From Tremella fuciformis (Eukaryota > Basidiomycota > Tremellomycetes > Tremellales > Tremellaceae): DNA of 64,000 nt. The translations under genes were made by a program, and so were the position numbers. Shown one piece after another: positions 3,678 to 57,217 of this stretch. How positions within the stretch are numbered: the stretch's first letter is position 1; the number at the start of each line of letters is the position of its first letter. The stretch is from the NCBI GenBank assembly GCA_032768795.1, contig CP136495.1, positions 1,986,501-2,050,500 on the forward strand, written 5' to 3'. Under the pieces are notes generated by a model. The model had not been told where the DNA came from and ran no database searches. It saw nothing but the letters and a program-made list of their open reading frames with translations.

Positions 3678-5504
3678 CTAATGACTGTGTCCGTTCAGGT
3701 GGGCGTGTCCATTCATCTCGCCGTTGCAGCATCCAGAGGACTCCTCGCCCTCTGCTGGCGGCTGGAGGGGCTTGATAGGTGCGTACGGGTCGAAGCCATT
3801 CAACCACTCGTCGCTCCGTCCTTTTGGCCCACTGCCCATCAGTCCCTGGGACTTTCCGCTCGCAACAAGGGGCGACTCACGGAAGAGAGCTCAGACCCCG
3901 CTTGATAAACTTGCCCTCGCCCATCTTGCTCACCACCTTGTTGGTCGCGCCGTCATACGCGACATTCCCGCGGAGAAGGACCAGTCGGGGCCAGTCGGCG
4001 ATGGTCATGCCCTCGTACGGCGTGTAGTCCGCGCCGTGGTGCATGTTGTCCTGCGTGACAAGCACGGGTTTCCGTGCGGCCGCCGAACGCCAGATAATAA
4101 TGTCGGCATCGGAGCCAGGTGCGATCGTGCCCTTCTTGGGGTACATCCCTGCCGCTCAGCCCACCGAGGCCAGATCACAGCGGGCACTCACCGTATAGCT
4201 TTGCCGCATTTGTCGAGTTGAGCTCGACGAATTTCTGAGGGGACATGCGGCCCTTGACGACGCCCTCTGACCAGAGGAGGGGTGTGCGGGTACATACGCC
4301 CGGCAGGCCGTTGGGGATGGACTTGAAGTTGCCGCGCTTGTTCTTGGTGGGATTGTTGATCAGGCCGAGCTGCTTGCCCTTCTCGTCGTAAAAGTTGTAC
4401 GGCGCGTGGTCAGAGGAGAAGACGGTGAACGTGCCGTTGGCCAGCCCGTCCCAGATCGCCTCGTTGTCCTTGGGATCCGACCGCAGCGGCGGCGCGCACA
4501 CGCATTTCGCCCTGTCATCAGCCTCCCCAACCGCTCCCAGGAGCATACTGACCCCTCGAAGCCAGGCGCGTGCATCTCCTCGGCGGTCAAGAGGGCAAAG
4601 TGCGGGCACGTCTCGGCGTAGATGGGCAGGCCGCGCGTCTGCGCTTTCCGGATACACGCCGTCGCGCGCTTCTCGCTGACGTGCACGATGAGCATGGGCG
4701 CATCGACCACTTCGGCCAGCGCGATCGCGCGGTTCGTCGCTTCGCTCTCGACGATCGGGGGCCGCGATGTGCCGTGGTGCCATGGCTCGACCATGCCGCG
4801 GCGCACGAGCTGCTCCGAGACCCAATCGATGATGTCGGCGTTCTCGGCGTGCACCATGGTCGTCACGCCCGTCTTGCGCGCCGCGCAGAGGATGTCGAGC
4901 ACTTCGCGGTCGTTGAGCTTGAGCAGGGGGTACGTCATGTAGATCTGGGCTCAGCTCCGAGTCCACTTCTGGAGCTGCGGCGAGGACCCACCTTGATACT
5001 CGAGACGCCAAAGGCCAGCATGCGCGGGATCTCGATCTCCACCACCTCGTGCGCCGGGCTCGTCACAATACAGTGGTAGCTGTAGTCGCAGTGCGCCGCG
5101 CCGTCCGCCAGCTCATAGTACGCCTCGACGGCATCCATGACGCTCTTCCCGCGCGCCTGCACGGCGAAAGCGACGACGGTCGTCGTGCCGCCCGAGACGG
5201 CGCCGCGGGTGCCGGTGGTCCAGTCGTCGGCTGAGCGGGCGTTGCTCGCAGACTGGCCGATGTGGACGTGCGAGTCCACCCCGCCAGGCGTGACGTACCC
5301 GCCCTCGGCGTCGATGACCTCTGCTCCGGCGGTGGGGAGGTTGACGCCGAGGCAGACGATCACGCCGTCCTTGATACCCACATCGCAGGGCGTCTCGTCC
5401 TGCGGGTCAGCCCTCCTCCACCGAGCTCATGATGGTAGGGAGGGGCTCACAGAGGCCGTGATGACGATACCGTTCTTGATGACCAGGTCGAATGCGAGGG
5501 ACAT
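3678..5504 (-). CDS. Dihydropyrimidinase / D-hydantoinase family amidohydrolase
   Basis: Six exons (5504-5451, 5399-4992, 4944-4553, 4511-4192, 4148-3881, 3831-3678) encode 531 residues, the usual dihydropyrimidinase length. Seen: the metal-binding HxH at residues 62/64 in GGVDSHVHIGQ; the lysine expected to be carboxylated, K154 in SSIKIYMTY, reconstituted exactly across the exon 2/3 junction; VHAEN; ETCPHF; and the aspartate motif SSDHAPY. The family is a binuclear-zinc cyclic amidase that opens dihydropyrimidines or 5-substituted hydantoins to N-carbamoyl acids. The C-terminus is rich in G, N and H and has no peroxisomal tripeptide. Neighbouring racemase, carbamoylase and D-amino-acid oxidase genes favour a hydantoinase role; pyrimidine catabolism (PYD2-like) is the main alternative. 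It is divergent from the aldolase gene across a 571-bp gap. Confidence 0.9.
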
Positions 5505-6075
5505 GGCTGCTGGCTGCTGCTACTTTTTCGAAAAGGGCTTCCGCCGAGAAAGACGTGTTGCAAACGCACAGCGACCGCTCTGCTCGACTGGGCTAGTCCA
5601 GTGCCCACACGAGATGAGATCCGGCTCCTGCACTACAGTACGGTATGCATGCGTATCAAAACCCGCCCGCCCTACCGGACGCCATTGGCCCAACACATCC
5701 TGACCGACCGGCCAGGACGGCCAACCTCCTTCGCCGGCGGCCAGCAGCAAGCTTCAAGGGTTCAGTCTATCGGCCCGACGGCAGCACAGAGGCTTATCGT
5801 CAACGACGCATTGCTCCTTCGTCCCGTCTGGTCGTACGCTTCGCTTCGCTCGTAGCCGCACTGTGGACGAGATGCGGTCGAGTGCGAGCTGCAGAGCTGG
5901 CCAACCACCAGCCGACCTTTGCGTTCCTTCCGGTTCGACCTGGAACGCAGCCTGTCCTCGTGTCCAGCTAAGAAGCCATTCCTTCACCAGGCTTGTCCCT
6001 CCCGCATACTGATCCTGTCCTTGACACCTGTATCTACCTGTTCCCTACACCACCCGCACCGAAGCAGCCCTCAAC
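5505..6075. promoter_or_regulatory. Divergent promoter between hydantoinase and class II aldolase genes
   Basis: The 571-bp gap separates two divergent starts. It holds a copy of TTGGCCGTC (minus strand, 5716-5724) and a GC-rich CTGGCCGCCGGCG (minus strand, about 5732-5744). Both resemble motifs in other promoters of this cluster. A role as binding site for the local Zn2Cys6 protein is inference only. Confidence 0.4.
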
Positions 6076-7105
6076 ATGGCTCCGATCGCCATCTCAACCA
6101 CCGCGACCATCGTGCCAGAGACAGTGGTAACCGAGCCCCCCGTGTACCACCAGTCCACCTCGGACCTGTCGAAGAACCCCCTCGACCGCATCTCCCGCGG
6201 AGACAAGGAGGGCAAGATCCGCCTGAGAGGGTATCCAGACTGCTACTACGCCAAAGAGGGCGACGAGGCGGCATTGCTGGCAAAGCGCCAGTGGGTCAAG
6301 GAGCACCTCGCAATCGCCTTCCGGTTCTGGGGCAAGCTGGGATATGGCGAGGGCATCTCGGGGCACATCACAGTGCGCGACCCGATCCTGCGCGACCACT
6401 ACTGGATGAACCCCTTCGGCGTGCACTTCTCACTCATGACCGTATCGAAGCTCGTGCTCGTCACGCCTGAAGGCTACGTCCACCCCATGGGCGCTCAGCT
6501 CCCCATCAACGTGAGCGACTTATGGATCCTCAGTGCTTGGGCGTGGCTGACTGGCAGATGGCCGGCTTCTACATCCACTCTGCGATCCACCACGCCCGGC
6601 CCGAAGTGGAAGCTGCGGGCCACTGCCACTCGCTGCACGGCAAAGCGTGGAGTGTCATGGGCCGCCCGGTGGAGATCACCACACAGGACTCGTGTCTCTT
6701 CTACGACAACCAGGCGGTCTACCACAACTTTGGCGGCATCGTGCTCGCCGCAGAGGAAGGCGCAAACATTGCCGCCGCCCTGGGGCCGAGGAACAAATGC
6801 GCGATCCTGCAGAATCACGGCCTGCTGACGCTCGGCCACACGGTCGACGAGTGTGCCTACCTCTTTAGCGCGCTGGACAAGCAGTGCAAGGTGCAGTTGA
6901 TGATTGAGGCCGCGGCGGCCAATGGCATTCCCAAGACGGTCATCTCGGACGAGGACGCCGCTTTCACGGCCAACACTATCCAGTAGTGCGTCTGCCTCAA
7001 GGGGTTGCTGCATGACGCTGACCATCTAGCCATGAGAACGTGTACTTCAACCTTGTGCCAGAGGTCGAGCTCGTCCGGGTTCGCGAGCCCGACGTCTTGG
7101 AGTAG
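6076..7105 (+). CDS. Class II aldolase/adducin-family protein
   Basis: Three exons (6076-6510, 6558-6985, 7030-7105) encode 312 residues. The first intron (47 nt, GTGAGC to TGGCAG) joins LPIN to MAGFYIHSAIHHARP and restores the family core. Seen: GISGHITVRDP near residue 95, the zinc-binding histidines in AGHCHSLHGKAW, and LQNHGLLTLG. These mark the class II aldolase/adducin fold (relatives: L-fuculose-phosphate aldolase, L-ribulose-5-phosphate 4-epimerase). Fungal members of this length often have unknown substrates. Nothing in the sequence gives the substrate. Shared promoter space with the hydantoinase suggests a part in side-chain or keto-acid metabolism downstream of the nitrogen pathway, but this is a guess. 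Confidence 0.85.
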
Positions 7106-7399
7106 ACTCAGGTGATTTGGAGGTCTTTCTGTACAGTATTTGGCAGTATGCATGGCTCTGCGTGGTCTCCCATGTTCTCTGATGCACGCCTCGACAGCTT
7201 CGCATCGAGTCTGTGTACAAGCAAGGGTTGGTACTGGTGTCAGCTGTAGGGTGTGAGGAGTTGTTGGCCGGCGGCGAAAAAGCTTCGGTCGGCTAGCAGG
7301 AGACCTCGTTTCGTGTTCCCTCGTTCATCTTCACGAACGAATAGTGACTGTCCAGACGTCAGCTCTTTCAGCTTGAGCTCCTCAGTCGTTCACAGCAAG

Positions 7400-8161
7400 A
7401 TGCGCATCCTGATCATCAACCCCAACTCTTCGAGATCCATCACCGACGCCATCCGGCGCTCGCTCGCCGGGCACCCCCTCGGCCCCGGGGTGAGCCTGGA
7501 CTTCTGGAACCCCTCTTCGGGCCCAGCAGGCATCTCGGACCCCATCACAGCGCTGGAATCCACCGACGCATGCATGTCCGAGCTGCTCGGCACCGCCGGC
7601 TCTGTCCCCGACGTCGCAGACTACGACGGCGCCCTCGTGTGCTGTTTCTCCGAACACCCGCTGATCGCTACACTCTCCGAGGCCTTGCGGGTACGCGGGT
7701 CCAAGACGGCCGTCATGGGAATGTTCCACGCCGGCCTCACGCACGCCTTGCTCCTTCTTTCCTCTGATATGCCGGCGGAAGGCAAGACTGTAGGCAAGTT
7801 CGGCATACTCGCCACGGGCACGGGGCGCAAGGTGAACCAAGAAATCGGCGTGGCGAACTATACGGGCACCAACGTCGACGCGCCGTCGAGCAGGTACGCC
7901 GGTAGCTTGACGACTGGCCTGGGTATTGTCGAGCTGCAGGAGGGGGATCAGCGGCGGGTGGAGCGGCTCATGAAGGAGTCGGCGGCGGAGCTGGCGCGCC
8001 GGGGCGCGACGGTGTTGATTCTTGGGTGTGCGGGCATGAGTGGGATGGAGGAGTGGGTGAGGGAGGGAGCGAGGCAGGGCGGGGTGGACAGCATGAGGGT
8101 CGTGGATGGGACGCGGGCGGGCGTGGAGCTGCTCATCGGGCTGAGCCGCACCAGCGCGTAG
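7400..8161 (+). CDS. Asp/Glu/hydantoin racemase family protein
   Basis: An uninterrupted frame from ATG 7400 gives 253 residues, the normal size for the family. The same frame is open further upstream, but the protein start MRILIINPNSS is the conserved beginning of the first strand. The two catalytic cysteines of this two-base racemase family are present, in LVCCFSEHPL and LILGCAGMSG. Bacterial relatives racemise 5-substituted hydantoins or allantoin; the fungal relative DCG1 is linked to allantoin catabolism. Position between hydantoinase and carbamoylase genes supports a hydantoin racemase, which would let both enantiomers enter a D-specific route. Allantoin racemase or a DCG1-like role remains possible. 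No intron was seen, unlike all its neighbours. Confidence 0.87.
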   Translation: MRILIINPNSSRSITDAIRRSLAGHPLGPGVSLDFWNPSSGPAGISDPITALESTDACMSELLGTAGSVPDVADYDGALVCCFSEHPLIATLSEALRVRGSKTAVMGMFHAGLTHALLLLSSDMPAEGKTVGKFGILATGTGRKVNQEIGVANYTGTNVDAPSSRYAGSLTTGLGIVELQEGDQRRVERLMKESAAELARRGATVLILGCAGMSGMEEWVREGARQGGVDSMRVVDGTRAGVELLIGLSRTSA

Positions 8162-8235
8162 CCATCTCATAGATCGAGAAGTCTGAATGCATGTTGTACA
8201 TTATCAGACTTGCATCGCAAGTAGCTAGAGTCCTA

Positions 8236-10825
8236 CTACGTCGACGGCGCCTGCGTCGAGAAGAGATCACCGAGGCCCAAGTCCAAGCCACCCCCACCTC
8301 CCGTCAAGTCAAACTCGGCACCAAAGCCCGCGCCCCAGTCCCACAGCAGCTGCGGGTCCAGTATATCCGTCGTCGAGACCCCCGCAAGATCCGCCGTGGT
8401 CACGCCCGTCGTATCGACCACTTGACTCGTAGTTTGCGTGACGTTAAGGGGCATGATCGGGGTATGCAAGTCGAAGGTGCTGACAGGGCTGGTCGAGCCG
8501 CCCGTCAAGATTTGGACAAACTCTGCGTGCTCGTCGAGGCTGCCAAGACGGATAGCGACGGATGTCGCACGCCGCAGAGCAGGGAACGCGACGTCCCAGT
8601 GGTGGTCCTTCTTCAACGTTCGAAGTGCACGGATAAGCCTTCCAGCCAGATCCATCGTCGACTTCAGCGGCGCAGACGAGGGCGCGAGCGTGATCCGGAC
8701 TAGGCAAGAAGTCACGGCGGTAAGGATATGAGAGGCATCTATCGCCAATATCAGCTAGAATCCCCGCTCCGAGACGGACGCACAGTTCAAGTAGAAGCCG
8801 TCCAGCTCTGGCGGCCGCAGACTCTCGACGAACCCCACAAACTCGGCAAAGGGCACAATGACACTGGGATCGGGATCGAAAGAATTCCCAAAGCCATGTT
8901 GCAGCTCCATGGCGATCCGCTTCAGCATGCACCTGAAACCAAGGATATGAAGGAGGAACGAGGCGACTCCTGTCGGTCGAGGGGTGCCGCTAAAGGCGAT
9001 ATCGCGCCATTCTTTGTTGAGCAGCTCGTCGACGCGCGAGGCGATCTGCTCGACCTTTTCTTTACGCTCAGACGCAGTGTGCATTGCAACGGCACCCAAA
9101 GCGACGACGTCGGCCTGCAGCCGCCGAACGTGTTTGGCGAGTTGACATGAGGCGATGAAAGCCCTGGCGCAGTCGGTCGATGTTGACGAGAAGGCGCAAG
9201 ATGCTACGAGCACGGACGACAGGGAGGGGAGGGGCACATTCGAGTTTTGCGCTTGTATGTGACATGGGCGGGAATTCACTATACGTGAGCTCGACGGAAG
9301 AACTGGTCTCAGATAGCTTACAAAAGCTCATCCATGCGTCTTGGATAGCTAAAGCCCACCAGAGTCGCACGCGCAGTTCTTGCTCCCACTGCGGCAGTCT
9401 CCAATGTTGCGAATTGAGATGTAGTCCGAGCAACTGAGCCAGGGCGATGGTCTATGTTTATCAGTAGAACTCCCAGAGTCAGGATGACGGGCCTCACCTT
9501 TGCCAACAGCAGATAAGACTCGCGACTGTCCGACGCAGGGCGCAGACCAAGTTGCAACACGGCAGCCGCGACTCCAGCCAAGTTGCTATCATTCTGGCAC
9601 CCGCAGTCGGTGTTGATCAAGTTTGTGGCTAGCGGGGCTAAGGGCCGCAACTCCTGGGAATGGCTGAAGGCATGGGCGAGGATGGTAGAGACGAGATACG
9701 GTGGCAGCTGAGATATTTTGCCTTTCGGCAAGACCGGCCAAGCCGCATGTACTTGCTCGTAGTAGAGGGTTGTGAGGGCCTCTTCGGTGACCTCGACCGG
9801 GTGATGCTGGATGAGGGTGCGCAATTGTCGTAGTCCTTTCTCGCCCGCTTGAGTCGAGTGCTTGCCGCCGTCTACAAGTGAGCTAAAAGGCGACTGCGGC
9901 AAGACGTTGACACACCATTGCGCTTCGGATTCAGAACGACAAAGGTCGGGTGTGTCGAGTCGGACGACTGACTGTAAGCTCCGGCTGTAGGCTTGCATGA
10001 GCACTCACGATCTGCTTCACCCGCGCGGCCTCTGTATCTCTGTTCGAGCCGCCCTTGCCATCACCCTCACCGTCAACGACAATGGGCAAGAGGTCATTGG
10101 TCAACGGATTGGTGAGGACTATAGCATCAGCAGGCGCACCCACGGTCATTTGGCCGCTCCACGGTCCACGCACCGTGCGGCTCGTAGCCAGAGGTGGCGA
10201 GGTGGTCGAGGGACGGCACGGCGGCAGCAAGGACGTCGAGTCCTGAAGGCGAATGTGAGCCCGAGTTGTCCCCGTCCGGGTCGTCCGTCACCCTCGACCC
10301 TCTGCGAGAGTACCAGTCATCATCCATCGGCGTGGCCATATCGTCGTCATCGTCATCGCCGCTCCTCGCGCGCTTGTACGGCCGCACGCCGGCGCTGCTC
10401 GGCGGACGCGACGCGGCGCTATCTTCCCTCTGGCGGCCTGTGTGCCAATGCCCATGGCCACTAGCACCGGGGCGCAGCGTGCCGTCGGCCAGGCGCTGGC
10501 CTTTGGGCGGGTTCGGGTCGGCCGCGTCGCTCGAAGAGGGTTTCGGCGGTCTCTTGCGCGGCTCGGTGCCCATGTTGAACGCGCACTCTTTGTGCAGCTG
10601 CGAGCAGCGCGTACACGGCGGGCCCGAGGCGTCGATGTCGCATCGCGCTTTGCCTTTGCGGCAAGCGTCGCACGGCCGGTTCTTCCGCGATCGGTGGAAG
10701 CGCGCCCGGGACGGGTTCGAGTCTGGTCCGCCGTTTTGTACTGGGCTTTGGGAGCTGGCGCTACCGCTGGCGTGGGGCAGCTGGAACGTCTGCGCCTGGC
10801 CGACGCCCATACTTGGAAAGGACAT
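8236..10825 (-). CDS. Zn2Cys6 fungal transcription factor (cluster regulator candidate)
   Basis: Six exons (10825-10174, 10118-10009, 9971-9498, 9451-9322, 9278-8784, 8738-8236) give 787 residues. The N-terminal zinc cluster has cysteines 52, 55, 62, 71, 74 and 81 with spacing C-X2-C-X6-C-X8-C-X2-C-X6-C. It is followed by a basic KRPPK stretch and an acidic DDDDDD run. The middle region carries the fungal-specific domain signature RVRLWWALAIQDAW, preceded by the GLHLNSQHWRLPQWE segment. A glycine-rich C-terminus may hold an activation region. The second intron is only 37 nt and less certain, and an extra intron near 9900 is possible. The same frame is open upstream to 11008, but MSFPSM at 10825 is the likelier start. 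It lies inside the hydantoin gene group, so control of that group is a reasonable inference. Confidence 0.88.
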
Positions 10826-11067
10826 GATGCTCTGCGAGGTAGTGTGTAGGTTCGCCGCCGGCTTTGAAGAGAGGAAACGCCTGTTTGGGCGTGCGAGGCT
10901 CTTTGGGTGAGACGGGCGGGCACTGATAGACGGCCAACCCACAAGGAGAGAAATTGATCCCGCTCGATAAGGAGTCTTCAGCCCAGGCCGTGTTGTGTAT
11001 GCACACACGTCGCACGGAAAGGATGCTATGCATAATCATGACAGGTGAATCTATAGAACGGCAGAGA

Positions 11068-12296
11068 TCATAGCTTGCTGCTGCTCAATCCTCGCGAGAT
11101 CGAGTCGGACACCACCAGGCCGACGGCATCTTCTGCCGTGCCCCAGCAGCTCTGCCACCCCGCCCCGCCGTGTCCGTAGTTATACACGACGGCAGTAGGC
11201 CCGACATCTTCCCCCTTCTCCAGACGCACACCGTCCTTCCTTGACGGCCTGAAGCCCACGAGGTTCTGCTCAATCAACTCTTCTGGGAAAGCCAGAGTAG
11301 ACGAGGGCGATGTCAGATTGAAAGGGATGATTTCTGGGCAAATCTCGAGCGCCCGACGGAGGATGTCGGTGGTGGTCTCCGGTCTTGGGTAGGGATACCA
11401 GTCATCGTTCTCCCGCGTGCCGCCCACAATGACCTCGCCGCTCTGCCGCGGGATGACATACGTCCGCTCGCCCCCTTCGCCTCCCTGCAAGCTGCCGACT
11501 TGGCGAGTCCAGCCGGACCGGACCCATGGCGCGCGTAGCTTGACAACCTGCCCGCGTGTAGGGTAGACGGTGGTGTCTTCCACCCCGCCAAGCGTCAGTG
11601 CGCCAATGCCGACACATACGACCAGGGCGAGGGGCGGAACGGGGCCGATGAGCGCCCTGACGGGCTCGGAGTGGACGGCAGCGAGGGAGGGGAGGTGGAG
11701 ACGGTGGATCTTCGCGAGCGGGTTGGACTGTATACGCTTGAGCAGGCGACGCAGGTATACGGGCGGGTTCATGGTGAGGGATGTGAAGGAGATGGAGTGG
11801 TCGCAGTTGGGGATGTTGTCGAGGACCTGGAACTGCCTCATCAGCTTCCGCTTGTCCCATGAGAGGATCAGAGAGGTGGACGCACATCGGGATGCTCCTC
11901 GTATATGGCCAAGTGGGTCTTCGCCCCCACATACGTCTCGGTCTGCTTGAGCATCATGATGCCCGTCGCGTGCTCGCCCTCGGCCGCGCACTCGGCGGCC
12001 ATGATCTCAAACGCTGCTTATCAGCTCCTACCCGTTTACAAGGCAGCTGACGCACTGCGGCGGTCCCAGCTGCGCTGGCGCAGGTCGGCATCGTCGGCAA
12101 AGCTCAAGTGGTGTGCGCCGGCAATCGTACTGGCATAGTAGGCGTCCAGCGGGTCGTCCGGCAAGTGGTCGGCGAGGATGTGCACCGGATGACCGTCCTG
12201 CGTGCACAGGGGCGACTCGAGCAGGCGCACGGCGGTAGTTAGGCCGATGACGCCAGCGCCAAGCACGACGATGGGGGCTTTGGTACTGCTGCTCAT
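11068..12296 (-). CDS. D-amino-acid oxidase with peroxisomal targeting signal
   Basis: Three exons (12296-12056, 12013-11886, 11832-11068) encode 377 residues. The N-terminus has the FAD-binding Rossmann glycine motif [10 protein letters not shown]. The middle shows WDRRTFEIMAAE across the first junction. The C-terminal half has [14 protein letters not shown] and the DAO signature [13 protein letters not shown]. The protein ends in SSSKL, a canonical PTS1, so it should act in peroxisomes. The family oxidatively deaminates D-amino acids to 2-oxo acids with release of ammonia and hydrogen peroxide. It is divergent from the N-carbamoyl-D-amino-acid hydrolase gene across 269 bp, which fits coupled expression: the hydrolase makes the D-amino acid and this enzyme consumes it. 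D-aspartate oxidase is a less likely alternative. Confidence 0.93.
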
Positions 12297-12565
12297 CTCG
12301 CCTGTATGCTCAATGTGTCGACCCAACAACCTGAATCGACCTGCATAAGTCTTGTTACAAGTAGCGTCGGACTTGATCCAGGAACAAGAGAAGCAACTCC
12401 GGGCGGAGCAAAGCCTGACTGGCTGGGACGGCCCTCGGCGGTCAGCACGTTGGCCGTCGGCTAGCTCGGCGGAAGGATGCATGGGAGAAGGATATGAGCT
12501 CGTGACTGCTTTCCAGACATACAGTCAGATCAATCCAACACCTGTCCACGAAGAGCAGTATCAGT
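12297..12565. promoter_or_regulatory. Shared divergent promoter of D-amino-acid oxidase and carbamoylase genes
   Basis: The 269-bp gap lies between two divergent ATGs. Seen: the inverted repeat CTCCG-GG-CGGAG at 12397-12408 (everted CGG triplets, a Zn2Cys6-type site), TTGGCCGTCGGCTAGC at 12450-12465, and CTCGGCGG copies nearby. The block GTCGGCTAGC also occurs in the racemase upstream region at about 7288-7297. Function as operators is inferred from pattern only. Confidence 0.45.
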
Positions 12566-13793
12566 ATGCCGCGCCTGCTCAAAGTCGCCGCTGCCCAAGT
12601 GGGCGCCGTGCACCGCTCGACGCCGCGCGCAGAGGTGCTCGAGCGGCTCATCAAGCTCGTCCACGAGGCCGCCCAGCAGGGCGTCAAGCTCGCCGTCTTC
12701 CGTGAGCCCCTCTAATTAGGAGTATGAGAGCGAGAAGAGGCTGACGACCAGCCGAGACGACGTTCACGACCTTCTTCCCGCGCTACTACATCACCGACGA
12801 GGCCGAGCTCGCGACGTACTTCCAGCACTCCGAGCCCGTGACGGAAGACGCCAACGTCGCCGCCTTCTTCGCGGAGGCACGGCGCCTGGGCGTGGATGTG
12901 CAGATTGGGTATGGCGAAGACACGGGCTCGGAGGGGCGGTACAACACGGCCGTCTACGTGTCGGGCAAGGACGGCGCCGTGCTGAACAAGTACCGCAAGG
13001 TGCATTTGCCCGGGACGGTCGAGCCGTTCGACCTGGACCCGAACACGACCAACCAGCTGGAGAAGCGGTACTTCCTCCCTGGCAACCTTGGCTTCAACGC
13101 CTTCCGCGCCACCTCGCTCAAGGATGAGTGCGGGGGCAGCTCGCCCATTGTGGGGCAGCTTATCTGCAACGACCGGAGATGGGCAGAAGGGTGGCGGTGT
13201 TATGGCCTGCAGGGGGTGGAGATTCTGTGCTGCGGCTATGTGAGCGTCCTGCTGGATGTTCTCAAGGTGACTGACGGGGAGAACACAACGGCATACGCGC
13301 CCAAGCTGTGGGGCGGCGACCAGACCATTACGCGGGAAAAGGCATACGAGGAGGCCATGGTAAATACTGTTATGGCATGAGCTGAGCATGCTGCTGATCT
13401 GCAGTTTCACCATAAACGCGAGCCTACAGCTTCTCAACCGGCACAGAGCTGACCTGCAGTCGTCGTACAGGCGCACGCGTACACAAACTCCAGTGAGCCA
13501 AGCCCTGCTGGGAAGCAGCCCAGCTGAAGACAGTGTTCTGTATCACCTCCGCACGCGCGGGAAACGATGACAATCTGCACCCGCTCATCCCCGGCTCCAT
13601 GATCGTCGACCCGGAGGGCCATATCGTAGCAGAGAGCAAGACCGAAGATGACGAGCTGGTGATTGCCACGATCGACCTGGACGACTGTAAGCAGGGCAAA
13701 GAGCGGACGTTCAACTTGGGCAGACATCGTCGGCCAGAGATGTACGGCCGACTGGTAGAAACGAACGGCGTGGTTCCGCCGCCCGAGCCGTAA
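12566..13793 (+). CDS. N-carbamoyl-D-amino-acid hydrolase (nitrilase superfamily)
   Basis: Six exons (12566-12701, 12752-13239, 13282-13359, 13405-13417, 13460-13492, 13534-13793) give 335 residues. The Glu-Lys-Cys triad of carbon-nitrogen hydrolases is seen: E47 in PETTFTTFFPR, K128 in KYRKVHLPG, C184 in ICNDRRWAEGWR. The PETTFTTFFPR and NDRRWAEGW blocks match the N-carbamoyl-D-amino-acid amidohydrolase branch better than beta-ureidopropionases. Exon 4 is a 13-nt microexon. The next intron must use a GC donor (GCGAGC at 13418) for the conserved FHHKLVVQAHAYTNS to read through. The enzyme would turn N-carbamoyl-D-amino acids into D-amino acids, CO2 and ammonia, between the hydantoinase and DAO steps. 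No targeting signal is seen, so it is probably cytosolic. Confidence 0.88.
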
Positions 13794-13969
13794 CCGCAGC
13801 GAGGGGCATTTGCGATCACACCATATAGACTATGCATGGGTTCTTGGGTATCCGACGCTCTCAGCCACGCGATCCCTGAGTGAATGCAAGACAGTATACA
13901 GGCCCACTTAGAGTGGAAAGATACCAACGGTGCATCACACAACTACAGACTATACTACCCAGAGAGAAA

Positions 13970-15245
13970 CTATGTCTTGTACGAGCTGAGCATACGGGCG
14001 TTGATGTACTCCTCGGCGGTGATCGGCTCGTACGCCTTGGGGCGGTCGGTGTCGTTGTACGTTCCCGGCAGGCAGTCGATCAGGAAGTCGGGGCGGGTCT
14101 TGAAGAAGAAAGGCATCGAGTACCGCTCGGGCGTCACGTCGCCCGTGACGTCCGGGGGGCACCGCACGCGGTGCAGCGTGGAGCGCAGAACGTTGTTCGA
14201 CCAGCGCTGCAGGAAGTCGCCTACGAGTCAGCATTCAGGTCGGTAGCACAGAAGCAAGCCGCGGGGAGCTCACCAATGTTGAAGATGGCGTGGTTGGGCA
14301 GCGGCCTCGCCTGGAGGAACGTCCCCGGGTTGTTCGGGTCCTCAACCTCCAGGCCGCCCGTGTTGTCCTGGAACAGGATGGTGCCGACGCCATAATCGGT
14401 GTGCTCGCCAATGCGCCCGACCTCGCCCTCGCGGAGGGCCTTGGTGCTCTGCGGCGCATAGTGCAGGAGGCGGATCTGGTTCTCGCCCTCGCGGTGCGCC
14501 TCGACGAGGTAGCCGGCGGGGACGTGCGGCATGCCCATCTCGAGCGCGCGCAGGAGGGTGAGGGCGCAGCGCGAGCCGTGGGCGTAGTAGTTGTTCAGGG
14601 CGTTGCGGAAGCCCGGCAGGTCGGCGTCGGGCAGGCAGATGTTGGGCATGCGCAGGTTGTACTCTGACCCAAAGTCGAAGGCTTCTTTCGAGTCGGGCCA
14701 TTTGCGGTTGCGCTTGTACTCGGCGATCTGCTCGTCTGTGGCATCGTGCGGCTGGGTATCAGCGAGCGCCGCGAGCCAGCAAGCGAGCAGCGCTGCTACA
14801 ACCAGCGAGCAGCGCTAGCGGATCTAGCCGGGGAAGGGGTGGGGGAACGGCGACTTACCAGCTGCACGATGAGGTTCGCCCCGGATGCCGTGTAGCCCCG
14901 ATGCCACCAGCCCAGCTCGCCCCGCGGGTGCGGCGCCTTCATCTTGACCTCCTTCGGGAGCTCAAAGTACTTTTTGCTCCATCCAAACATGTCCTGCACG
15001 AGCGTGAGGTCCATGCCAAAGTTGGTAATGTACGCAAAGCCAACATCCCTGCATGCGGTGTAAAAGGCATCGGCGACCTCCTGCGCTCGGGGGCCGGTCC
15101 CATTGTCGAAGCCCGTAAAGTCAATCACGGGCAGGGAGGCGACCGCAGACGACGTCGACGAGTACTTGTCGGTGATGTGGGATGCCTTGGTGGGGGCGGA
15201 AGCAGAGGACGGCTCGGCCGCCTCGGGGATGGCGATGGGGGCCAT
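13970..15245 (-). CDS. 2-oxoglutarate/Fe(II)-dependent oxygenase, isopenicillin-N-synthase-like
   Basis: Three exons (15245-14859, 14751-14274, 14220-13970) give 371 residues. Seen in order: the N-terminal DIOX_N segment (LPVIDFTGFD, VGFAYITNFG), the Fe ligands HTD in GEHTDYGVGT, the product-fold NTGGLEV, the distal histidine in RSTLHRV and a following R. This is the plant/fungal IPNS-like 2OG-Fe(II) dioxygenase family, whose substrates range from secondary metabolites to thymine and nicotinate derivatives. The substrate is unknown here. Position at the edge of the hydantoin group suggests oxidation of a related ring or amino-acid side chain (inference). An upstream TTGGCCATCGGCCAA palindrome (15475-15489) resembles motifs in the other cluster promoters. 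Confidence 0.87.
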
Positions 15246-16268
15246 GGCGGTGCGCTTCAGATGCTCGTTGGCGGTCAGGAGCCTCTCGGCTAGGGGCGTA
15301 TGGGCCAGGAAAGTGGGAGGATGGGGAGGGTTGACGAGATCGTTCTTCTTCTGCAGGAGGGAGAGCGCACTTATGTCCCCGCTCTGCCCTCCCTCGATGG
15401 ACGCAGGAGGGAGGGACCCAAGTGGCCAGCGCCGTCGCCCAGGGCCGAATGCTTATCGCGACGGCGAGCAGCAGTTGGCCATCGGCCAACACCACGTGGA
15501 AACAACACGCCGCTGGCCAATGCTGCTCTGGCTTGGCCTGGCTTGGCCAGCCAAGTGGTCCATTTGGTGTCCATGCATGCTCTATTCTCAGACCGAATCA
15601 TGTTCTGGAATGGCCCACTGCACAACGCTGACCGAGATGATGCGTGCGCACGGCCAAAGGATGCCGCAAAGAGCCACGAAAACACATTGCCAATCAGAGA
15701 GTGCTCGTCCGACCACCTCCATGGTCACTTTACGTAGGCAGTACATCGTCAGCTCGGGACCCGTGTCTCAACTAGGTCTACGGTGGCGTAGTCTCCGTCT
15801 GCTATGCCGTTCTGACACAGGCGAGTGATTCACTGGCACACTCTCGACAAGGTCTCGTGGGGCTCAACGTCCCCAATTTGGCTACCGGTCACTTACAGAA
15901 GCCTCATTCCCACCACGCGATGTCGTGGCAATGCCTTCTTTCCACATGATGGTGATGATCGACGCTCTCCACCTCACTGATACTGAAGAACCAAGCTCGA
16001 CATGGCGGCGTCCTCCGCTGCCGCCTTGCCACAGCCCCTCTCCTCTCCTCCTGGCGCCGAACCCCAATCCCGGTTCCGTGCCCAGCGTTGACGAGCTCAG
16101 AGTCGCGTATGATACACATGTGCATGCTGAGATGATGCCCACACAGCTGCCACACCACTTGGGGGCGCTGCCGAGAACTGGCATTCGACACCTGCCCGGA
16201 TCAGACGCTCGAAACTCCGTGGTCGATTGTGATCGACCTGCTCCCACAGCCCTCCTGAAAGTTGCCAC
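15246..16268. other. Intergenic stretch without a recognised gene
   Basis: About 1 kb between two minus-strand genes. Short open frames on both strands show no family motifs and no splice pattern that joins them. The part near 15475-15560 is rich in TTGGCC/GGCCAA repeats, including the palindrome TTGGCCATCGGCCAA at 15475-15489. Confidence 0.4.
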
Positions 16269-16960
16269 CTAGAATCCCCTGCCCCTAGGTCCACCACGCC
16301 CTCTCGGTCCTCCGCGGCCCCTCGGGCCACCTCGGCCTCCTCGTGCTCCCCGTGCAGCCGCTCCCTCTTTCCGTTTCTTCGCCCGCGGTGCATCGTCGAC
16401 CAGCAGCGTATCTAGCGGGAGCGAATCGGGAAGGACGATATACCGGACGTTGTTGCCGCGGATGGCTATCGAGTCGAGGGAGACGGGCGGTGTGCCGGGC
16501 GCGGCTGTGCGGAGTGTCATCTTGACACTTTTGAGATGGGTGTTCATTTGCGGGTCGACGGCTGTTTCGTGGCACGCGACATGCAAGATGATCAAGGTAG
16601 GCCACACGGAGAGTGAGGAATATATTGTCAGGGGAGAGTTTTAGATGGCAAATGAGTTGTCACGACCGGTATCGAGGGGAAGAGACGCGTTCGTGGTATT
16701 GTTAAATGCCGAATTTGACGGTCATGACGCGACGTAAGGGGTAATAGTGATAGTGCAATGCAACGAGACGATAGAAGAATAGCGTCAGCTCTCGCCTTCC
16801 ATCTCTAGCTTCACCCACAGGTGATCGTCCCGTGCAGGACTGTCCCATTCTTCAACTCGATCGAGACCGTCTCGTTGTTGAGCTTCATCAGGAATCTGGC
16901 ATGAGCGACTCCCCCTCCACGGCAATGCTCGCTGATAAGAACCCACCTGACGAGCTTCAT
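16269..16960 (-). CDS. SMD1: Core spliceosomal Sm protein D1
   Basis: Three exons (16960-16947, 16895-16819, 16561-16269) give 127 residues. The first exon is only 14 nt (MKLV plus two bases). Joined, the protein begins [20 protein letters not shown], the Sm1 motif of SmD1. Exon 3 carries [12 protein letters not shown] and the Sm2 motif [20 protein letters not shown], then an RGG-type tail ([11 protein letters not shown] repeated) typical of SmD1 and a target for arginine methylation. It forms the heptameric ring on U1, U2, U4 and U5 snRNAs. The second intron, about 257 nt, is several times longer than other introns here. Confidence 0.95.
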
Positions 16961-39836: not shown

Positions 39837-42800
39837 TTATTCTGTCATCTGAAGCATCTGACGTCTAGACGCATCCCTTGCTGCCAATACACGTCCTGAT
39901 ACTCCCCCCCTTCTACTCTCTGTGTTCAAGCTGTTCAATCTTGCCCAATCAAAGCCTGGCTTGAAAGCAAGGCCCTCCAGAGATCTTGCTCTTGAGATTG
40001 CCACAAATGTCAATCCCGTTGAGAAGTCGGCTGAACCAAGATCAATCACTGCCTTGTCCAGCGTCATACCCTGTGATTTGTGTATGGTGATAGCAAATGC
40101 AAGCTGCAGTGGCAGCTGGCGTCGAGAGCACCGCTGCCCGTTTGTTGTCTCCCATCTGGCTGTATGGGGCACAATGGGAACCAGTGGTATGTTGTCTGTG
40201 GTGTGCCAGGGTGTTGGTCCAGTGTAGGATGGGAAGGCGACCATGACCACAGAAGGAACAGATTGATGAGGAGGCTCAGATGGTGAGAGCCCAATCTGAT
40301 ATACTGTGCCCCTGGTGCCATTGACCAATCCCTGCTCGATCCAGAGGTTGCGAGAAAGCATGACTTGAGCACCAATCATGAGGAAGACAGCAGGAGCAAG
40401 CCCCTGTGCCTGTTCCTCTGAAGCCTGGGCTGCTCCTACCCCTGTGTGCTGAGCCAGAGAGCGCAGTACAGGCTGTCCAGAGCGAGCCAAAGTGTGTAGG
40501 TTGATCTCGGAGACACTCTGCTTTGTTGCACAAAGACATACAGCATCTTGAAAGGCCTGCTGAGATGCCGGGGAAAGGTTCCCCCAGAAGCGAGAGGACA
40601 GAAGGGTGTAGTCCTCCTGTTGAGGTGTCCCGGTGTGCAGGCGAGCAAGGGTTGCTTTGAAGGCAGTGGTGGTAGGGTCGGAGCCTTCCTGCCTCATAAC
40701 AGCATCAAGCTGAACGCTCTCAGTGAAAGCAAGGTAGATATCTCGGCCAATGTTGCTGAGCCTGCCTAGATAGGAGGTTTTTGTCGAGCGTGCAGTGTTG
40801 TACAGTGGAGTGTCTCCCACAGGGGGCAGTTGACCAAAGTCGCCAATGAGCAGGACAGACAGACCGGCAAAGGGCAAGTACGCTGTCGACGGAAAGATTT
40901 GACCAAGAGCAAGGTTGATTCTCCCCAAGGCCGCCCTTCCAACCATGCTTTTCTCATCAATGATGAGGTATCGTGTCCCATGCCACTCTTCCTGGAGGCT
41001 GGCAAGCTTTCCCTCTCCAAGCTTGTCATGACTTTCCTCTATTGAGCCTCCAAGACCAAGGGCAGCATGGTATGTTGAACCAGCAATGTTGAATGCCGCC
41101 ACACCCGTGGGGGCAAGCCGGCGGACAATGGGATTTGTGCTGAAGTCGAGATTGTTGTGCTGCCCAGATTGGAGCCCTTGAAGAGCTTGGGATATGGCGT
41201 CAATGAGGAAGGATTTGCCTGTTCCTGCTGTCCCATCGATGTTGAGGAGTATTTGAGGGACTGACTCTCCAGAGAGCAGACGGTTGGCATGGCGCAAGAC
41301 CTTGTCAAAGATGAGGCGCTGTGTGGTGTTGAGTAGTTGGGGATCGACAGTGTTGCGAGCTACAGAAGGCTGAGACTGCTTGGTCAGCTCACAGTATGCA
41401 GTGGATTGTAGGCCACTGCTCACCTTCTTGCGTTCGGTTTCTAAGTAGCTTGCCCTCTCTCCTATACCATCTGATCCCCACTCCCTCCCCACTGCTTCCC
41501 AATCGTGGGAAGTATCAATATCACGTGCTCCAAGCAGTGGCCCATTCCACCCATCTTCATCAAACTGAGGGCCCATTCCAGCCAGAACTTGCCAGTCATC
41601 AAGCTCGTGGTCATTGACTTCTTCACCCTCAGAAAACTCTGAGTCACTGTCGTTTTCATTGTCACCCTGTTGTTGACGGATGGGTCGCTTGGGCAATGTG
41701 TCTTGGTGCCCCTCTGGGTGGTCCTCAGTACAGCGAGAAAAAGCTTCTGTCCAGGATTCGTCATCAAGCTTGAGCTCTGAAGGGTGTCGATGAGGATGGT
41801 GGAGTAGTAACTTTGCCCGGCACCAGTTTTGGTGATCCTCAGACTGAGGGTCTGATGGATAATACAGCGGCCAGAGAATGATGATCTTTGGGTGCTTCCT
41901 TCGAGTGGCGTTGCGACCTTGTTTCCGGTAGAATTGAAACCATTCGTACAGGCTGATGCCCTCATGCTCTGGCTGGCGTGCCAAGTAGGCATCGTGCCAG
42001 TCTTGCTCCTCCACACCTTGGTCCAGTCCCTCATCTTCCTGCCTCTGCCTCAGGCGTCTCTGTCTCTTTTCCAGTATGCAGAGTGTGCCAAACTCTCGTG
42101 ATGCAGACATCATATGTCGACCAAAGAGCTGATGACAGACTTCCTGAGCACTGTAATCCCTCTCGGTGACAATGCGGCTGAGCATCTTCTGGAAGACAAT
42201 TCGTGAAGATGTTTCTTGCTCCAGGCGGGTTGAGATAGCCTGCATTATCTCGCCAAAGTTGTTGGATGGTTTTTCGCATTTTGAAGCATACTTGGAGATG
42301 TAGGAGGCAACTGCACGGGGATCTGTGCATGGACTGATGTCGGAGTTGGCTCGCCATCCCAGTGCAGTGACTGCATTGTAACTGTTGAGGTGGGTGTCGT
42401 TGCGTGGTGTGATGAGTTGCTTGTTTCTGTTGGGATTGACAACCAGTCGGAGTTCTGTCTCCAGCTCCTTGGGGAACTTGAAGCGACAGACAAGCGGACT
42501 GTTGGGAGGAGATCCTTTTGGGCGGCGAAGACAATAGGCAGTGCACCTCGTGTGCCTCTGGACACGGTTGAGCATCTGTGCCAGATCTTTGAAGCGAAAG
42601 ATGATTTCGTCGCTACTGTGGGCAGAGGGGTGCTTTGGATGAGGCGGAATGTCCTCTCCAGGATTGATGGTTGACACTCTGGTGGACCAGAAGTCAAGGA
42701 ATTCCTGGACACTGTCCGGATTGTTGATATCAAGGGTGTCTGGGGATGGCGCCCCCTTGAGCCAAACCAGTCCATGGACATGGCTGGAGCCTCGATTTTG

Positions 42801-45258
42801 CCATTCAAAGCGATACCACCAGTCCTCTATTCCAAGCAGGGGTTTGAGGACCTTGGCCAAGAACAGCTCAAATCTTCGATAGAACCAGCAAGCTGCAATT
42901 GCTGGGTTCTCATTGACGTTCTTGGCATTGATGCGTTGTCGATCAGGTTCGCTCATAGTTGGTAGCGCTTGGTCCGGCATGTGGACGTGGAGATCTGGCC
43001 ACTGAAGATCCGCAGCTGAGAATGTGATGAAAGCATGTGGAGTGCCCAGTTGACGGATCATTGCAGCAAGATTGCGACTCTGCTGTGCCCAGTAGGGTGG
43101 TGTTCCGGTTAAGGTGGCTGCTGATCGTCGCACTCGAGATGCCAGCTGCTTGGCTGGGTCGGACACCATGGCAGCAATGTCTGCAGCAGAGAGGGCTCGG
43201 TCCTCTTCATTCCGGCTGACATAGAAGCAGGAGAGCCGTTTTGCTCGCCACCTCATGATGCAGTTGAAGGCATAATAGCTGACTGTCAGCTTGGCTTAAT
43301 GCTGAGAGATGCACTCACCGGAATCGAGGGTGTTTTGCAAACCTTCCATCCTGATAGTAGAGCAGGTGACGGAAGTAGTCTGAATCACGTATTGTGGTAG
43401 GCCGTTGTTGATGCAGATCCCCCTGGCCGGTGGGGAAGAGGAAGGGGAAGGCCTTGGTGAGGAATGGGTTGCTGATGTCGTGCTCATTGATTGGAGTGGA
43501 ATGCAGCACAGGTCCAGTGAGGAGCAGGGGTGCTGGTGGTCCTCCATCCACCACCTGTTCCAGTGCTTCCCGGATCTCCTCCACAATATTGTTGCCTTCT
43601 CCAAGGTTTGGTATAGCCAGCTCTGGCAAGCTTGTCTCCTCTGCTGACTCCTGCTCAACTGGCCCAGTGTCAGGCTCAGGTGCGCTGTACTGCACCTCCT
43701 CCAAGTTGACAGACCGCAGCTGATGGAAGACAGAACCGTTTTCAGGAAGGGAATTGATTGCTTCCCAGTTGATCTCGACATTCTGAAAGGCTGGATGGAA
43801 GTGTTGTAGTGCTTGCAGGTTTGCGAGAATGCGTGACCGCTGGACTTGGAACTCTGGTCGGCGTGCAAAATCCTCTGAGGGATTGGCAGCGTTGGCGGGG
43901 GCTTGGGCATTTGTCGGCTTGATGATGAGAACATCAAGGTCGGTGACGGTGAGGGGAAGTCGAGAGAGGAATCTGCCACTGTCATGGGCATAGAGACAGG
44001 TGTGGCCTCCGTATTTGGTTTGTCCACCACCAACGCGCCATGTTTGAAGCAGCACATGGTAGGGAGAGAGGAGCATCTCTTCCACCTGTGAGGGCAAGTC
44101 AGGGACTGCTCTGCCAGCTGCACGGCACAGTTCCTGCAGAGAAGGACCTGTGAAGTCAGTCATGAGAAGCACATACAATCCTGGACACTGACCTGGATCC
44201 ATACAGTTGGCAGATGTCCATTTCTCCCCATCAATTTGACAACGTGAACATTTACCCTGTTGGACCTTGAGTCCAAACCATTTCTCATTGCAGTTCTCGC
44301 AAGTCTCCATCGTCTCAGCTGCCATTGCTGAGTGGAAGTCCCCAATACACCCAATGGCAGCTTCAGAGAGGCAGATGTCGTCAAGATCGTTGGGTGTTGC
44401 AGGAATGGGCAGGAAGGCATTGCCCAGCATGTCGACTGAGAGGGATGACTGAGTTGACTGTTGTCGACGATGATAGGCTGCTCTGGAGGATTCGCGACAG
44501 GTGCTGCAAGTCTTGAAGCGGCGAGAGGCTGTCCCTGCTTGGAGAAACTCGGAATGTTCTTTCCAGGTCTTGCACTTGAAGCAGCGTGACTGTCCAGCAT
44601 GGCGATCCAGGCGTGGTGGTGGGGCTGGTGGCTGTTCTGTGACTCGGTGTGCAGCACCTTGAGGCGGGCTGGGCGGAGTGGCGTAGGGCAGTTGAGGTGC
44701 ACGTCTGGTTCGTGTGGGGCGGCCAAGCTCTACAGGATGTAGATCCTGGTTGCGACGTGGTGTTGGTGAGGTGACCTCATGGCGCGGGCGTGGAAGACCT
44801 CTCTGTGTACCAGGCGTAGGCTGAGAGCCTGGGGTGACTGGTGGCAATGGCCGGGTTGTGCGAGTGGGTGTGCCTGGCGCTGATTGGGAGTGATGCTGCT
44901 CCAAGCAAGATTGGCATGTGTTGCGTGGGCGACCTCGATTGTCTCGAAATCGAGGAGTGGCAAAGGTGAAGCCACATTTGATGCACTCAGCATGACCATG
45001 CCGTGACCGGGGTGTTGCAAGTGGGACTGGCGGTTGTTTGCGACAGAAGGAGCATGTTTTGAAGAAGTCGCTGCTGCCCCGCCCTGAAGAAGCCTTCCGA
45101 AAGTGATCACCATTGAGAGTTGTGTGCTGACCCAAACAGCGTTGGCCTCGAGAGCAGTGCATTGCTGCAATATCTGGGACTTTCTGCATCAGTATGTGCA
45201 TGCATCGCTTGAAGGCAAAGCTCACATTGATGTTATGGACAAGCCAACACTTGATCAT
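39837..45258 (-). CDS. Helitron Rep/helicase transposase
   Basis: Two exons (45258-43319, 43278-39837; 40-nt intron) give 1793 residues from ATG 45258; ATG 45163 is an alternative start if an early intron is used. Cys-rich zinc-finger-like blocks lie near the N-terminus ([30 protein letters not shown]). The junction restores [17 protein letters not shown]. The rolling-circle Rep domain shows the HUH motif in [11 protein letters not shown] (about residue 813) and the tyrosine motif YISKYASK (about 976). The PIF1-type helicase has Walker [15 protein letters not shown] (about 1335), Walker [10 protein letters not shown], and a C-terminal [15 protein letters not shown] motif. No stop or frameshift is seen, so it could be active. 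Codon use is AT-richer than in host genes. Confidence 0.92.
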
Positions 45259-45716
45259 GCATCAACTTGCAAGAAGTTCAGCTGTACTCATCAGCCCATG
45301 CATGCATGACAGAAGAATGGGCGACTTACAGTGGGTCCAAAGTTAGGCATGCAATAGGAAGTGAGAAGATTAGGTGTGCAAGGCAAGCCAGGCAGCCTGA
45401 AATCTCTAAGTGCTCCGGAATTTCTTTATTTGATCCCCCCACATAAACAGTCAAACTGCCAGGGCTTCGCCAGATTTGAGTAGAGAGGGGGATGAGGATG
45501 AAAATTCAAAGTCCCCTCCACCCTTATACCCAGCCTGCCGGAAAATTTTTATTTGGCCCCCCCACTTACCGTTTTCGTTCCAGGGACACCCGCAGAATTC
45601 AGCACCGTAAGAGCTACGCTGATCAGAATGGCCGGAATTTTCTTATTTAATTCCCCCATTTACCGTTTTCGTTCCAGGGACACCCGCAGAAATTCGCCCC
45701 GTAAGAGCTACGCTGA

Positions 45717-49335: not shown

Positions 49336-50742
49336 ATGGCCCCTATCGCAATTGACACCGCCGCCAACGGGGACGCCGACGGCGTGCAAGACATCACAAC
49401 CCGTATCGCCAACCTCAAAGCGCAGCTGAAGCAGAACAAAGGCGTGCCGGTCGTCCCGCCCGAGAACACCCTCAAGCGATACCTCAAAGCGGGCATCGAC
49501 CTGTCGGGCGGGTACCCGTACTACCCCGCGAAGCCAAAGTACGTGCAGGACGTCGAGGCGATCCGGACCGACCTGCGCGAGTATGTGGACCCGGGCACGC
49601 GCGCGGACCCGGAGAAGAAGGCGCTGTTCGGTGCGGCAAAGGAGGTCCGCAACCTCACCATCAACATCGGAGTGAGCTTTACTTCATGTAAGAGAGATCA
49701 ACGACTGATGGCGTAGACGGAGATCGTCGGGTTGCAGCTGAAGGATCTCACCGACCAGCAAAAAGATGAGTTGGCACTTCTAGTGGCGGAGCGAAGTGTA
49801 GTCTGTAAGTCCCCCCCTCCCTTCGTTGACCTATGTTTCTCTGACATTGAATCAGTCTTCCGAGACCAAGACCTCTCCCCGCAGGAGCAGCAAGCGCTCG
49901 GTCTCTACCTCGGACAGGGCGAGATCGAGCGACACCCCCAGGTGGCCCAAGTGCCCGGGATCGGCGGTGGCGTCTCCCTCATCTGGGAGCAAGGTCGCCG
50001 CGACAGCAACCTCTCCGGACGCAGCAAACGGGTCCCATACGGGGGCGGCCAATTCGGCTGGCACACGGACCTCGTTCACGAGGGTGAGCGGTCTCAGCAA
50101 CGCATGGGCCGAGGTGACGGACGCAGCATACCCGCCAGGATACACCCACCTGTACCAAGACACAGTGCCGGAAGTTGGGGGCGACACGCTGTGGGCGAGC
50201 GGGTACGCGGCGTACGACAAGCTCACGCCGGCGTTCCAGCGGCTGCTCGATGGTCTGAACGGGATCTATCGCTCGGCGCACCGCTACAAGGACGCCAACG
50301 ACCCCGAGGCAGATTCGAAGTTCGTCACGCGCGTGCACCCGCTCGTGCGCACGCACCCGGTCACAGGGTGGAAGTCCCTCTTCATCAATCGCGCCATGAT
50401 GGACGGTATCGAGGGCTTCGACAAGCCTGAGAGCGACGCGATTTTGGATTACCTGCATGGGGTGTATGAGCGCAGTACGGATATTCAGCTGCGGTGGCAT
50501 TGGACCCCGGGCACTTCGGCCATCTGGGACAATAGGACCACGATCCATACGGTTTCTTTCGACTACGAGGGAGAGAGACACGTGAGTTGGGGTGTTCAGT
50601 TGCACATTTTTCTGCTGAACCGCAGGGCACTCGAGTCTCGTCTCTTGCTGAGAAGCCGTTCTTCGACCCAAACTCCAAATCGCGCGCACAGGCACTCAAC
50701 CTGGACGGCTGGCTCAACACTTCGGGGGTCAAGCATTACTAA
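49336..50742 (+). CDS. TauD/TfdA-family 2OG-Fe(II) dioxygenase, copy 2
   Basis: Five exons (49336-49671, 49717-49804, 49856-50083, 50127-50581, 50626-50742) give 407 residues. Seen: VGLQLKDLTDQQKDELALL, FFRDQDLSPQEQ, the Fe-binding HxD in QFGWHTDLVHE, PEVGGDTLWASGYAAYDKL, RTHPVTGWKSLFIN, the distal His in RTTIHTVSFDYEGERHG and an Arg in GTRVS. It differs from copy 1 in length and intron positions, so it is an old paralogue, not a recent duplicate. Likely roles are alpha-ketoglutarate-dependent sulfonate, taurine or aromatic-ether oxidation. It stops 93 bp from the convergent siderophore-transporter stop. The upstream MFS gene may deliver its substrate (inference). Confidence 0.88.
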
Positions 50743-50835
50743 GACAGGGGAGTTGAGTTGTACGGTGTTGTCATGTAGTCTATGGACGCCATGCTATCGT
50801 GCAATTGGATTTCGTGGAGTGACTTCCGTCAACCT

Positions 50836-57120: not shown

Positions 57121-57217
57121 TGGTAACGTCTCCTTCGACAAGTCGCGGTAGATAGAACGCGTCAACAAACTCGTCGACCTTGCCTACGCACCGCCAGCCT
57201 CGAAGTGGTCCTCCGTC

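Follow-up and report, generated by a model that had tools for sequence, protein, structure and literature searches.

A candidate hydantoinase-type catabolic gene cluster with a D-aspartate oxidase-type flavoenzyme in Tremella fuciformis

We analysed a window of 64,000 nucleotides from the fungus Tremella fuciformis (assembly GCA_032768795.1, contig CP136495.1, positions 1,986,501 to 2,050,500), in which seven intact genes at 3678-15245 form a candidate cluster for hydantoin catabolism. These ends are the stop of the hydantoinase gene and the start of a 2-oxoglutarate (2OG) oxygenase gene, and all seven genes are open after intron removal in an exon-by-exon rebuild. Pfam assigns each of the seven proteins above cut-off, and PDB relatives are present for all five enzymes searched (HYD, RAC, DDO, DCase and the 2OG oxygenase, as named below). 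Among the six proteins scanned against NCBIfam, only HYD and the aldolase pass models. The genes, with protein lengths in amino acids (aa), and the promoter copies of a shared palindrome are as follows.

3678..5504, minus strand: HYD, D-hydantoinase/dihydropyrimidinase-type cyclic amidase, 531 aa, 6 exons (gene model 5451-5504, 4992-5399, 4553-4944, 4192-4511, 3881-4148, 3678-3831)
5733..5741: palindrome GCCGNCGGC, divergent HYD/aldolase promoter
6076..7105, plus strand: ALD, class II aldolase/adducin-type enzyme, 312 aa, 3 exons (Pfam; NF004855 at 281 bits, cut-off 255)
7267..7275: palindrome GCCGNCGGC, upstream of RAC
7400..8161, plus strand: RAC, Asp/Glu/hydantoin racemase family, 253 aa, one exon (PF01177 at 122 bits)
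8236..10825, minus strand: Zn2Cys6 transcription factor, 771 aa, 7 exons (PF00172 and PF04082 above cut-off)
10854..10862: palindrome GCCGNCGGC, 29 bases before the start codon of the regulator gene
11068..12296, minus strand: DDO, D-aspartate oxidase-type flavoenzyme, 377 aa, C-terminal SKL, 3 exons
12453..12461: palindrome GCCGNCGGC, divergent DDO/DCase promoter
12566..13793, plus strand: DCase, N-carbamoyl-D-amino-acid hydrolase, 335 aa, 6 exons (gene model 12566-12701, 12752-13239, 13282-13359, 13405-13417, 13460-13492, 13534-13793)
13970..15245, minus strand: 2OG-Fe(II) oxygenase, thymine-7-hydroxylase-like, 371 aa, 3 exons, doubtful cluster member

The oxidase was assigned by comparison with characterized flavoenzyme structures. 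DDO scores 420 bits against the D-aspartate oxidase 9vpf versus 122 bits against the best D-amino-acid oxidase, 7ct4, and 210 of 350 aligned residues (60%) are identical to those of the D-aspartate oxidase of Vanrija humicola. A control, an oxidase paralogue frame ~110 kb away on the same contig, has the opposite preference and favors D-amino-acid oxidase at 177 versus 74 bits. On these scores a generic D-amino-acid oxidase was rejected, and by this measure the cluster oxidase is of the D-aspartate-oxidase type. DDO is predicted to act on D-aspartate (D-Asp), and its SKL end may direct import into the peroxisome. Activity on D-Asp is described for Dao1 of Cryptococcus gattii in the excerpted text of PMC4489021. 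The D-aspartate type of the oxidase makes acidic hydantoins, or N-carbamoyl-D-Asp/Glu, the likelier main substrates, and lowers the likelihood of bulky neutral ones, 5-benzylhydantoin for example. An earlier, sequence-only reading of this DNA had placed a hydantoinase, a racemase, a D-carbamoylase, a Zn2Cys6 regulator, an aldolase and a 2OG oxygenase within 12 kb, all of which is borne out by the intact models, Pfam and the PDB relatives; among the four core enzymes that it named, HYD, RAC and DCase stand, and the supposed D-amino-acid oxidase has to be renamed.

Inspection of DCase, as a provisional 249-aa model, reveals scores of 149-154 bits against eleven PDB D-carbamoylase sequences, compared with at most 36 bits against chains named as beta-ureidopropionase. 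On these scores DCase is of the D-carbamoylase type and not a beta-ureidopropionase. The residues E47, K128 and C184 and the motif CNDRRW are invariant among 13 aligned DCase proteins, and we take the three residues to be the Glu-Lys-Cys catalytic triad. An early stop in the first model had suggested a broken gene. Guided by homologues, this was resolved by a 13-nucleotide exon and a 42-nucleotide GC-AG intron that follows it (13405-13459), which yield the full 335-aa frame without any base change. So small an exon could be skipped by annotation pipelines, and the annotated relative P0001 is without the FHHKLVVQ stretch.

HYD passes TIGR02033 (494 bits against a cut-off of 393) and lies under the cut-off of NF009941 (618 against 647). 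Its PDB matches include the yeast dihydropyrimidinase 2fty at 430 bits and the D-hydantoinase 1nfg at 375 bits. The metal-ligand set of HYD (H62, H64, K154, H186, H242 and D319) aligns with identical residues of 1nfg. A comparison of gate-loop residues did not discriminate between hydantoin and dihydrouracil as substrate, and HYD may be D-selective. Four His, a Lys and an Asp serve as binuclear metal ligands of hydantoinases, in part according to the excerpted text of PMC7175128. A second HYD, 41-52% identical in pieces, has an NCS1 permease and also a Zn2Cys6 regulator as neighbours at C8:251000-260999, and its best PDB match is likewise the yeast dihydropyrimidinase. Elsewhere in the genome, the nearest aldolase paralogue lies beside a 2OG oxygenase at C6:175000-184999 (~180 kb), where the pairing of these two classes is seen again with an arginase-family gene near, and an ATP-type hydantoinase/oxoprolinase gene at C4:2317000-2326999 shares its surroundings with an NCS1 permease and a gene related to the cluster 2OG oxygenase.

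RAC keeps both conserved cysteines, C82 and C210, which are invariant across 16 sequences; the catalytic pair of the allantoin racemase KpAllR is Cys79/Cys184 according to the portion of PMC12661438 available. Its sole PDB sequence match is an allantoin racemase at 35 bits. The AlphaFold model (pLDDT, the predicted local distance difference test score, of 93) has allantoin racemases as its nearest folds, with template modelling (TM) scores of 0.71-0.76 by query length, and compares with hydantoin racemase at 0.62-0.66, barely above glutamate racemases (~0.6). RAC may act on hydantoins. A second gene of the RAC family, at C3:226000-236500, has an NCS1 permease and a 2OG oxygenase in its vicinity, along with a probable Zn2Cys6 regulator recognised by eye; this region is a second candidate ring-catabolism cluster.

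To place the cluster within the genome, we searched 28.14 Mb in 11 contigs, with the cluster on contig C6. DCase has one locus and the RAC family two; HYD has two loci and a distant 41-bit match, and the oxidase is represented by the cluster copy and two loci at 38% identity. Simple arithmetic from copy numbers puts the chance that some copy of HYD falls within 12 kb of the DCase gene at ~0.0017, the same for RAC, and at ~0.0009 for an oxidase copy. The closest protein matches of the cluster enzymes are from Tremellales: DCase, in its provisional model, is 84% identical to a Saitozyma and 82% to a Kwoniella protein, and HYD is 81% identical to a Naematelia protein.

Linkage in other fungi was addressed by comparing the best 120 DCase with the best 120 HYD matches, which have 16 named species or strains in common. 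Each row stands for a 90% cluster, so strains may differ between rows, and a shared contig was judged from equal longest-contig size, which is an indirect sign of linkage. By this measure HYD and DCase lie on a contig of equal size in 11 of the 16 fungi, and sizes differ in Rhodotorula toruloides, Rhodosporidiobolus nylandii, Sporobolomyces pararoseus, Pseudohyphozyma bogoriensis and Aureobasidium pullulans. Where both rows carry locus tags of one strain, the tags are 1-5 apart in all six comparable pairs (5, 4, 3, 2, 1 and 1 in Rhodosporidiobolus poonsookiae, R. nylandii, Sporobolomyces salmoneus, S. koalae, Sclerophora amabilis and Bathelium mastoideum). In the RAC search, which returned 74 matches, RAC IL334_006203 is next to DCase IL334_006204 in Kwoniella shivajii, on a contig of equal size; equal sizes are also seen in Tremellales sp. 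Uapishka_1 and, with HYD, in Cryptococcus sp. DSM 104549. The synteny in relatives looked for on the earlier reading is indicated for HYD-DCase, and for RAC in a few Tremellales.

In bacteria, the best 80 HYD loci listed include several on short contigs, and a DCase match is present in 3 of them, adjoining HYD each time. Neighbours were extracted for 45 chosen loci, 43 of which yielded 167 reading frames; the neighbour counts are lower bounds, as the frame picker missed a known DCase (L099) and dropped one locus (L040). A racemase-superfamily neighbour is present at at least 21 of the 43 loci (7 RAC-type, 16 Amdase-type). By Pfam, racemase-superfamily models come first among the neighbours, followed by GntR/FCD regulators and TRAP transporter parts (106 of 167 frames; best 25 of 91 families). 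That is to say, HYD with a racemase-type gene recurs in bacteria and HYD with DCase is rare in this set.

The promoters of the cluster share a palindrome. GCCGNCGGC (CCG-N-CGG) occurs 8 times in the window versus 1.8 expected, where the maximum in 100 shuffles is 7. Four of the eight sites lie in four promoter segments (HYD/ALD, RAC, regulator and DDO/DCase) that total 1376 bases, one per segment; two others lie within cluster genes (10481 and 11119) and two outside the cluster. Among 1792 palindromes with 4-base arms and gaps of 0-6, only GCCGNCGGC is present in all four segments, and the runner-up is present in one. Based on the remainder of the window, a Poisson estimate comes to ~2e-6, or ~0.004 after correction for 1792 patterns. 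Spaced CGG/CCG pairs over five promoter regions are not above chance: the best pair occurs in four of five, which 59 of 500 random control sets reach, with one set reaching five. Two extended patterns were picked after the sites were seen. RGCCGNCGGCKA occurs 115 times in the genome, with 4 in the cluster (100 of the 115 places listed) and 145 occurrences of the reversed control pattern; GCCGNCGGCGAA occurs 41 times (control 28), with 3 in the cluster within 5.1 kb and no pair within 90 kb elsewhere. We take CCG-N-CGG to be a Zn2Cys6-type site arrangement, and the cluster regulator may bind GCCGNCGGC.

With a probability of roughly 0.6, we read the locus as a co-regulated catabolic cluster that takes an acidic hydantoin through an N-carbamoyl-D-amino acid to D-Asp, then to a 2-oxo acid and NH3. 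RAC would interconvert both forms of a 5-substituted hydantoin, and HYD would open the ring to give the N-carbamoyl-D-amino acid. DCase would take off the carbamoyl group as CO2 and NH3 to leave the D-amino acid; a peroxisomal D-aspartate oxidase would then act on that acidic product, D-Asp or perhaps D-Glu, and release NH3 and H2O2 along with a 2-oxo acid. The regulator, whose own gene is under GCCGNCGGC too, probably activates HYD/ALD, RAC, DDO/DCase and itself. The sequence itself provides the enzyme classes, the intact active-site residues, the HYD-DCase linkage in other fungi and the shared palindrome; the order of steps is our proposal, as is an acidic hydantoin for likely substrate, with hydantoin-5-acetate, which would give D-Asp, as first choice. 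The sequence-only reading had proposed a hydantoinase-type catabolic cluster, and the enzyme classes, the linkage and the palindrome uphold this; its D-amino-acid oxidase is a D-aspartate oxidase by type, and its 2OG oxygenase, present and intact as a gene, is a doubtful member since no exact GCCGNCGGC lies upstream.

Several observations weigh against an acidic-hydantoin cluster under one regulator. The best PDB match of HYD, 2fty, belongs to a family that also takes dihydropyrimidines besides hydantoins. HYD is far below both curated models of hydantoin-5-propionate amidohydrolase (ErtD; 206/650 and 179/600 bits), which disfavours hydantoin-5-propionate to the extent that these bacterial models represent its hydrolysis. 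The His that precedes LEKRYF in bacterial D-carbamoylases is Gln in 13 of 13 aligned DCase proteins. The linkage evidence across fungi covers HYD-DCase, with RAC in a few Tremellales, and linkage of DDO is known from this genome alone; in the 5-residue-word search for RAC, in which many of the 74 matches are unnamed, none of the named matches belongs to the Pucciniomycotina or lichen species in which HYD-DCase is kept. The palindrome was noticed post hoc, and the four-segment count excludes the segment before the 2OG oxygenase, which was part of an earlier scan; this segment (15246-16270) has no exact GCCGNCGGC and three sites with one mismatch. No permease was recognised among the seven cluster genes, and NCS1 permeases lie at other loci.

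Bacterial hydantoinases and D-carbamoylases have a broad substrate range, and the same route could be a broad one that scavenges 5-substituted hydantoins of neutral character or N-carbamoyl-D-amino acids, with DDO taking some of the products and two other oxidases the rest. This breadth in bacteria speaks for such a route, as do the two further oxidase loci in the genome, one of D-amino-acid-oxidase type. The oxidase that shares the divergent promoter and palindrome of DCase is nevertheless the D-Asp type, and we regard the broad route as unlikely, if the nearest competitor.

The 2OG oxygenase and the PDB match of HYD to dihydropyrimidinase 2fty bring in uracil or thymine catabolism, with HYD as dihydropyrimidinase and the oxygenase as thymine-7-hydroxylase. 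The oxygenase is nearest to the Neurospora thymine dioxygenase 5c3p (189 bits; 119/319 identical, 37%) and keeps 13 of 14 Fe, 2OG and substrate residues examined of NcT7H, the exception being N87, which is replaced by His; the 14 are a subset of those named in the excerpted text of PMC4787775. Against this, dihydropyrimidine dehydrogenase was not found in a six-frame search that an exon-split gene could escape, where a glutamate synthase accounts for the single Fer4_20 match of the genome, and the case for uracil reduction is weakened. The CN hydrolase is moreover of D-carbamoylase type, the D-Asp oxidase and the racemase have no known place in pyrimidine catabolism, and the oxygenase is without an exact copy of the palindrome, all of which leaves this explanation improbable. 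More improbable still is purine/allantoin breakdown, in which RAC would be an allantoin racemase and HYD allantoinase-like. RAC is nearest to allantoin racemase in fold and sequence, and some fungal HYD relatives carry the name 'putative allantoinase'. HYD itself is far under the allantoinase cut-offs of three models (236/358 bits for TIGR03178, 224/631 and 196/688; best 25 of 57 NCBIfam families), so that it was rejected as an allantoinase; a D-carbamoylase and a D-Asp oxidase would be left without a role, and the second family racemase is located elsewhere, with the NCS1 permease.

Returning to acidic-hydantoin catabolism, a tentative extension, which we hold possible at somewhat less than even odds, is a eukaryotic pathway dedicated to these compounds, chiefly hydantoin-5-acetate, from which D-aspartate would be delivered to the peroxisome. 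If true, it would provide a natural source for D-aspartate metabolism in yeasts and account for the retention, in some of them, of an inducible oxidase specific for D-Asp. Hydantoinases and D-carbamoylases new to eukaryotes would be gained, and hydroxylated acidic variants would be processed by the class II aldolase, either by itself or together with the 2OG oxygenase. The clear prediction would be that acidic hydantoins support growth under one Zn2Cys6 regulator. The excerpted text of PMC5169069 describes numerous transfers of Asp/Glu/hydantoin racemases to fungi, and no obvious role for the one that was tested, in Candida glabrata; the cluster supplies a partner set for a transferred fungal racemase such as this.

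The cluster has a ribophorin-II/Swp1-like gene on one side and an LSM-domain gene on the other, identified from a single scanned reading frame each, with Pfam scores below cut-offs. Copia-type retrotransposon reading frames, recognised by eye, occupy both window ends (1-1560 and 57152-61525), and large minus-strand frames at 39837-45261 resemble, also by eye, a Helitron-type helicase element. A TauD-family dioxygenase adjoins a gene with a weak MFS match at 49802-52158, ~35 kb from the cluster.

Known systems share parts of this arrangement. The nicotinate (hxn) genes of Aspergillus nidulans are likewise an N-heterocycle regulon with ring opening, an amidase and the 2OG oxygenase HxnY, to which thymine-7-hydroxylase is the closest in structure (PMC9304392, excerpted text), whereas the ring and the hydrolases are others, and the words hydantoin and racemase are absent from the main text of PMC9304392. 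Vanrija (Cryptococcus) humicola has the oxidase 60% identical to DDO, described as highly specific to D-Asp (PMC5854778) and produced only on D-Asp (PMC10006432); neither paper mentions a hydantoinase or D-carbamoylase beside it, and the words cluster, carbamoyl and racemase do not appear in PMC8708985. The titles, abstract openings and selected passages of the open-access literature searched describe no fungal hydantoin utilisation cluster. In bacteria, the hydantoinase process, with clustered hydantoin racemase, D-hydantoinase and D-carbamoylase, is a textbook and industrial pathway. The fungal cluster resembles it in bringing together the same three enzyme classes, and differs from it in its introns, its Zn2Cys6 regulator, its SKL-ended D-aspartate oxidase and its class II aldolase.

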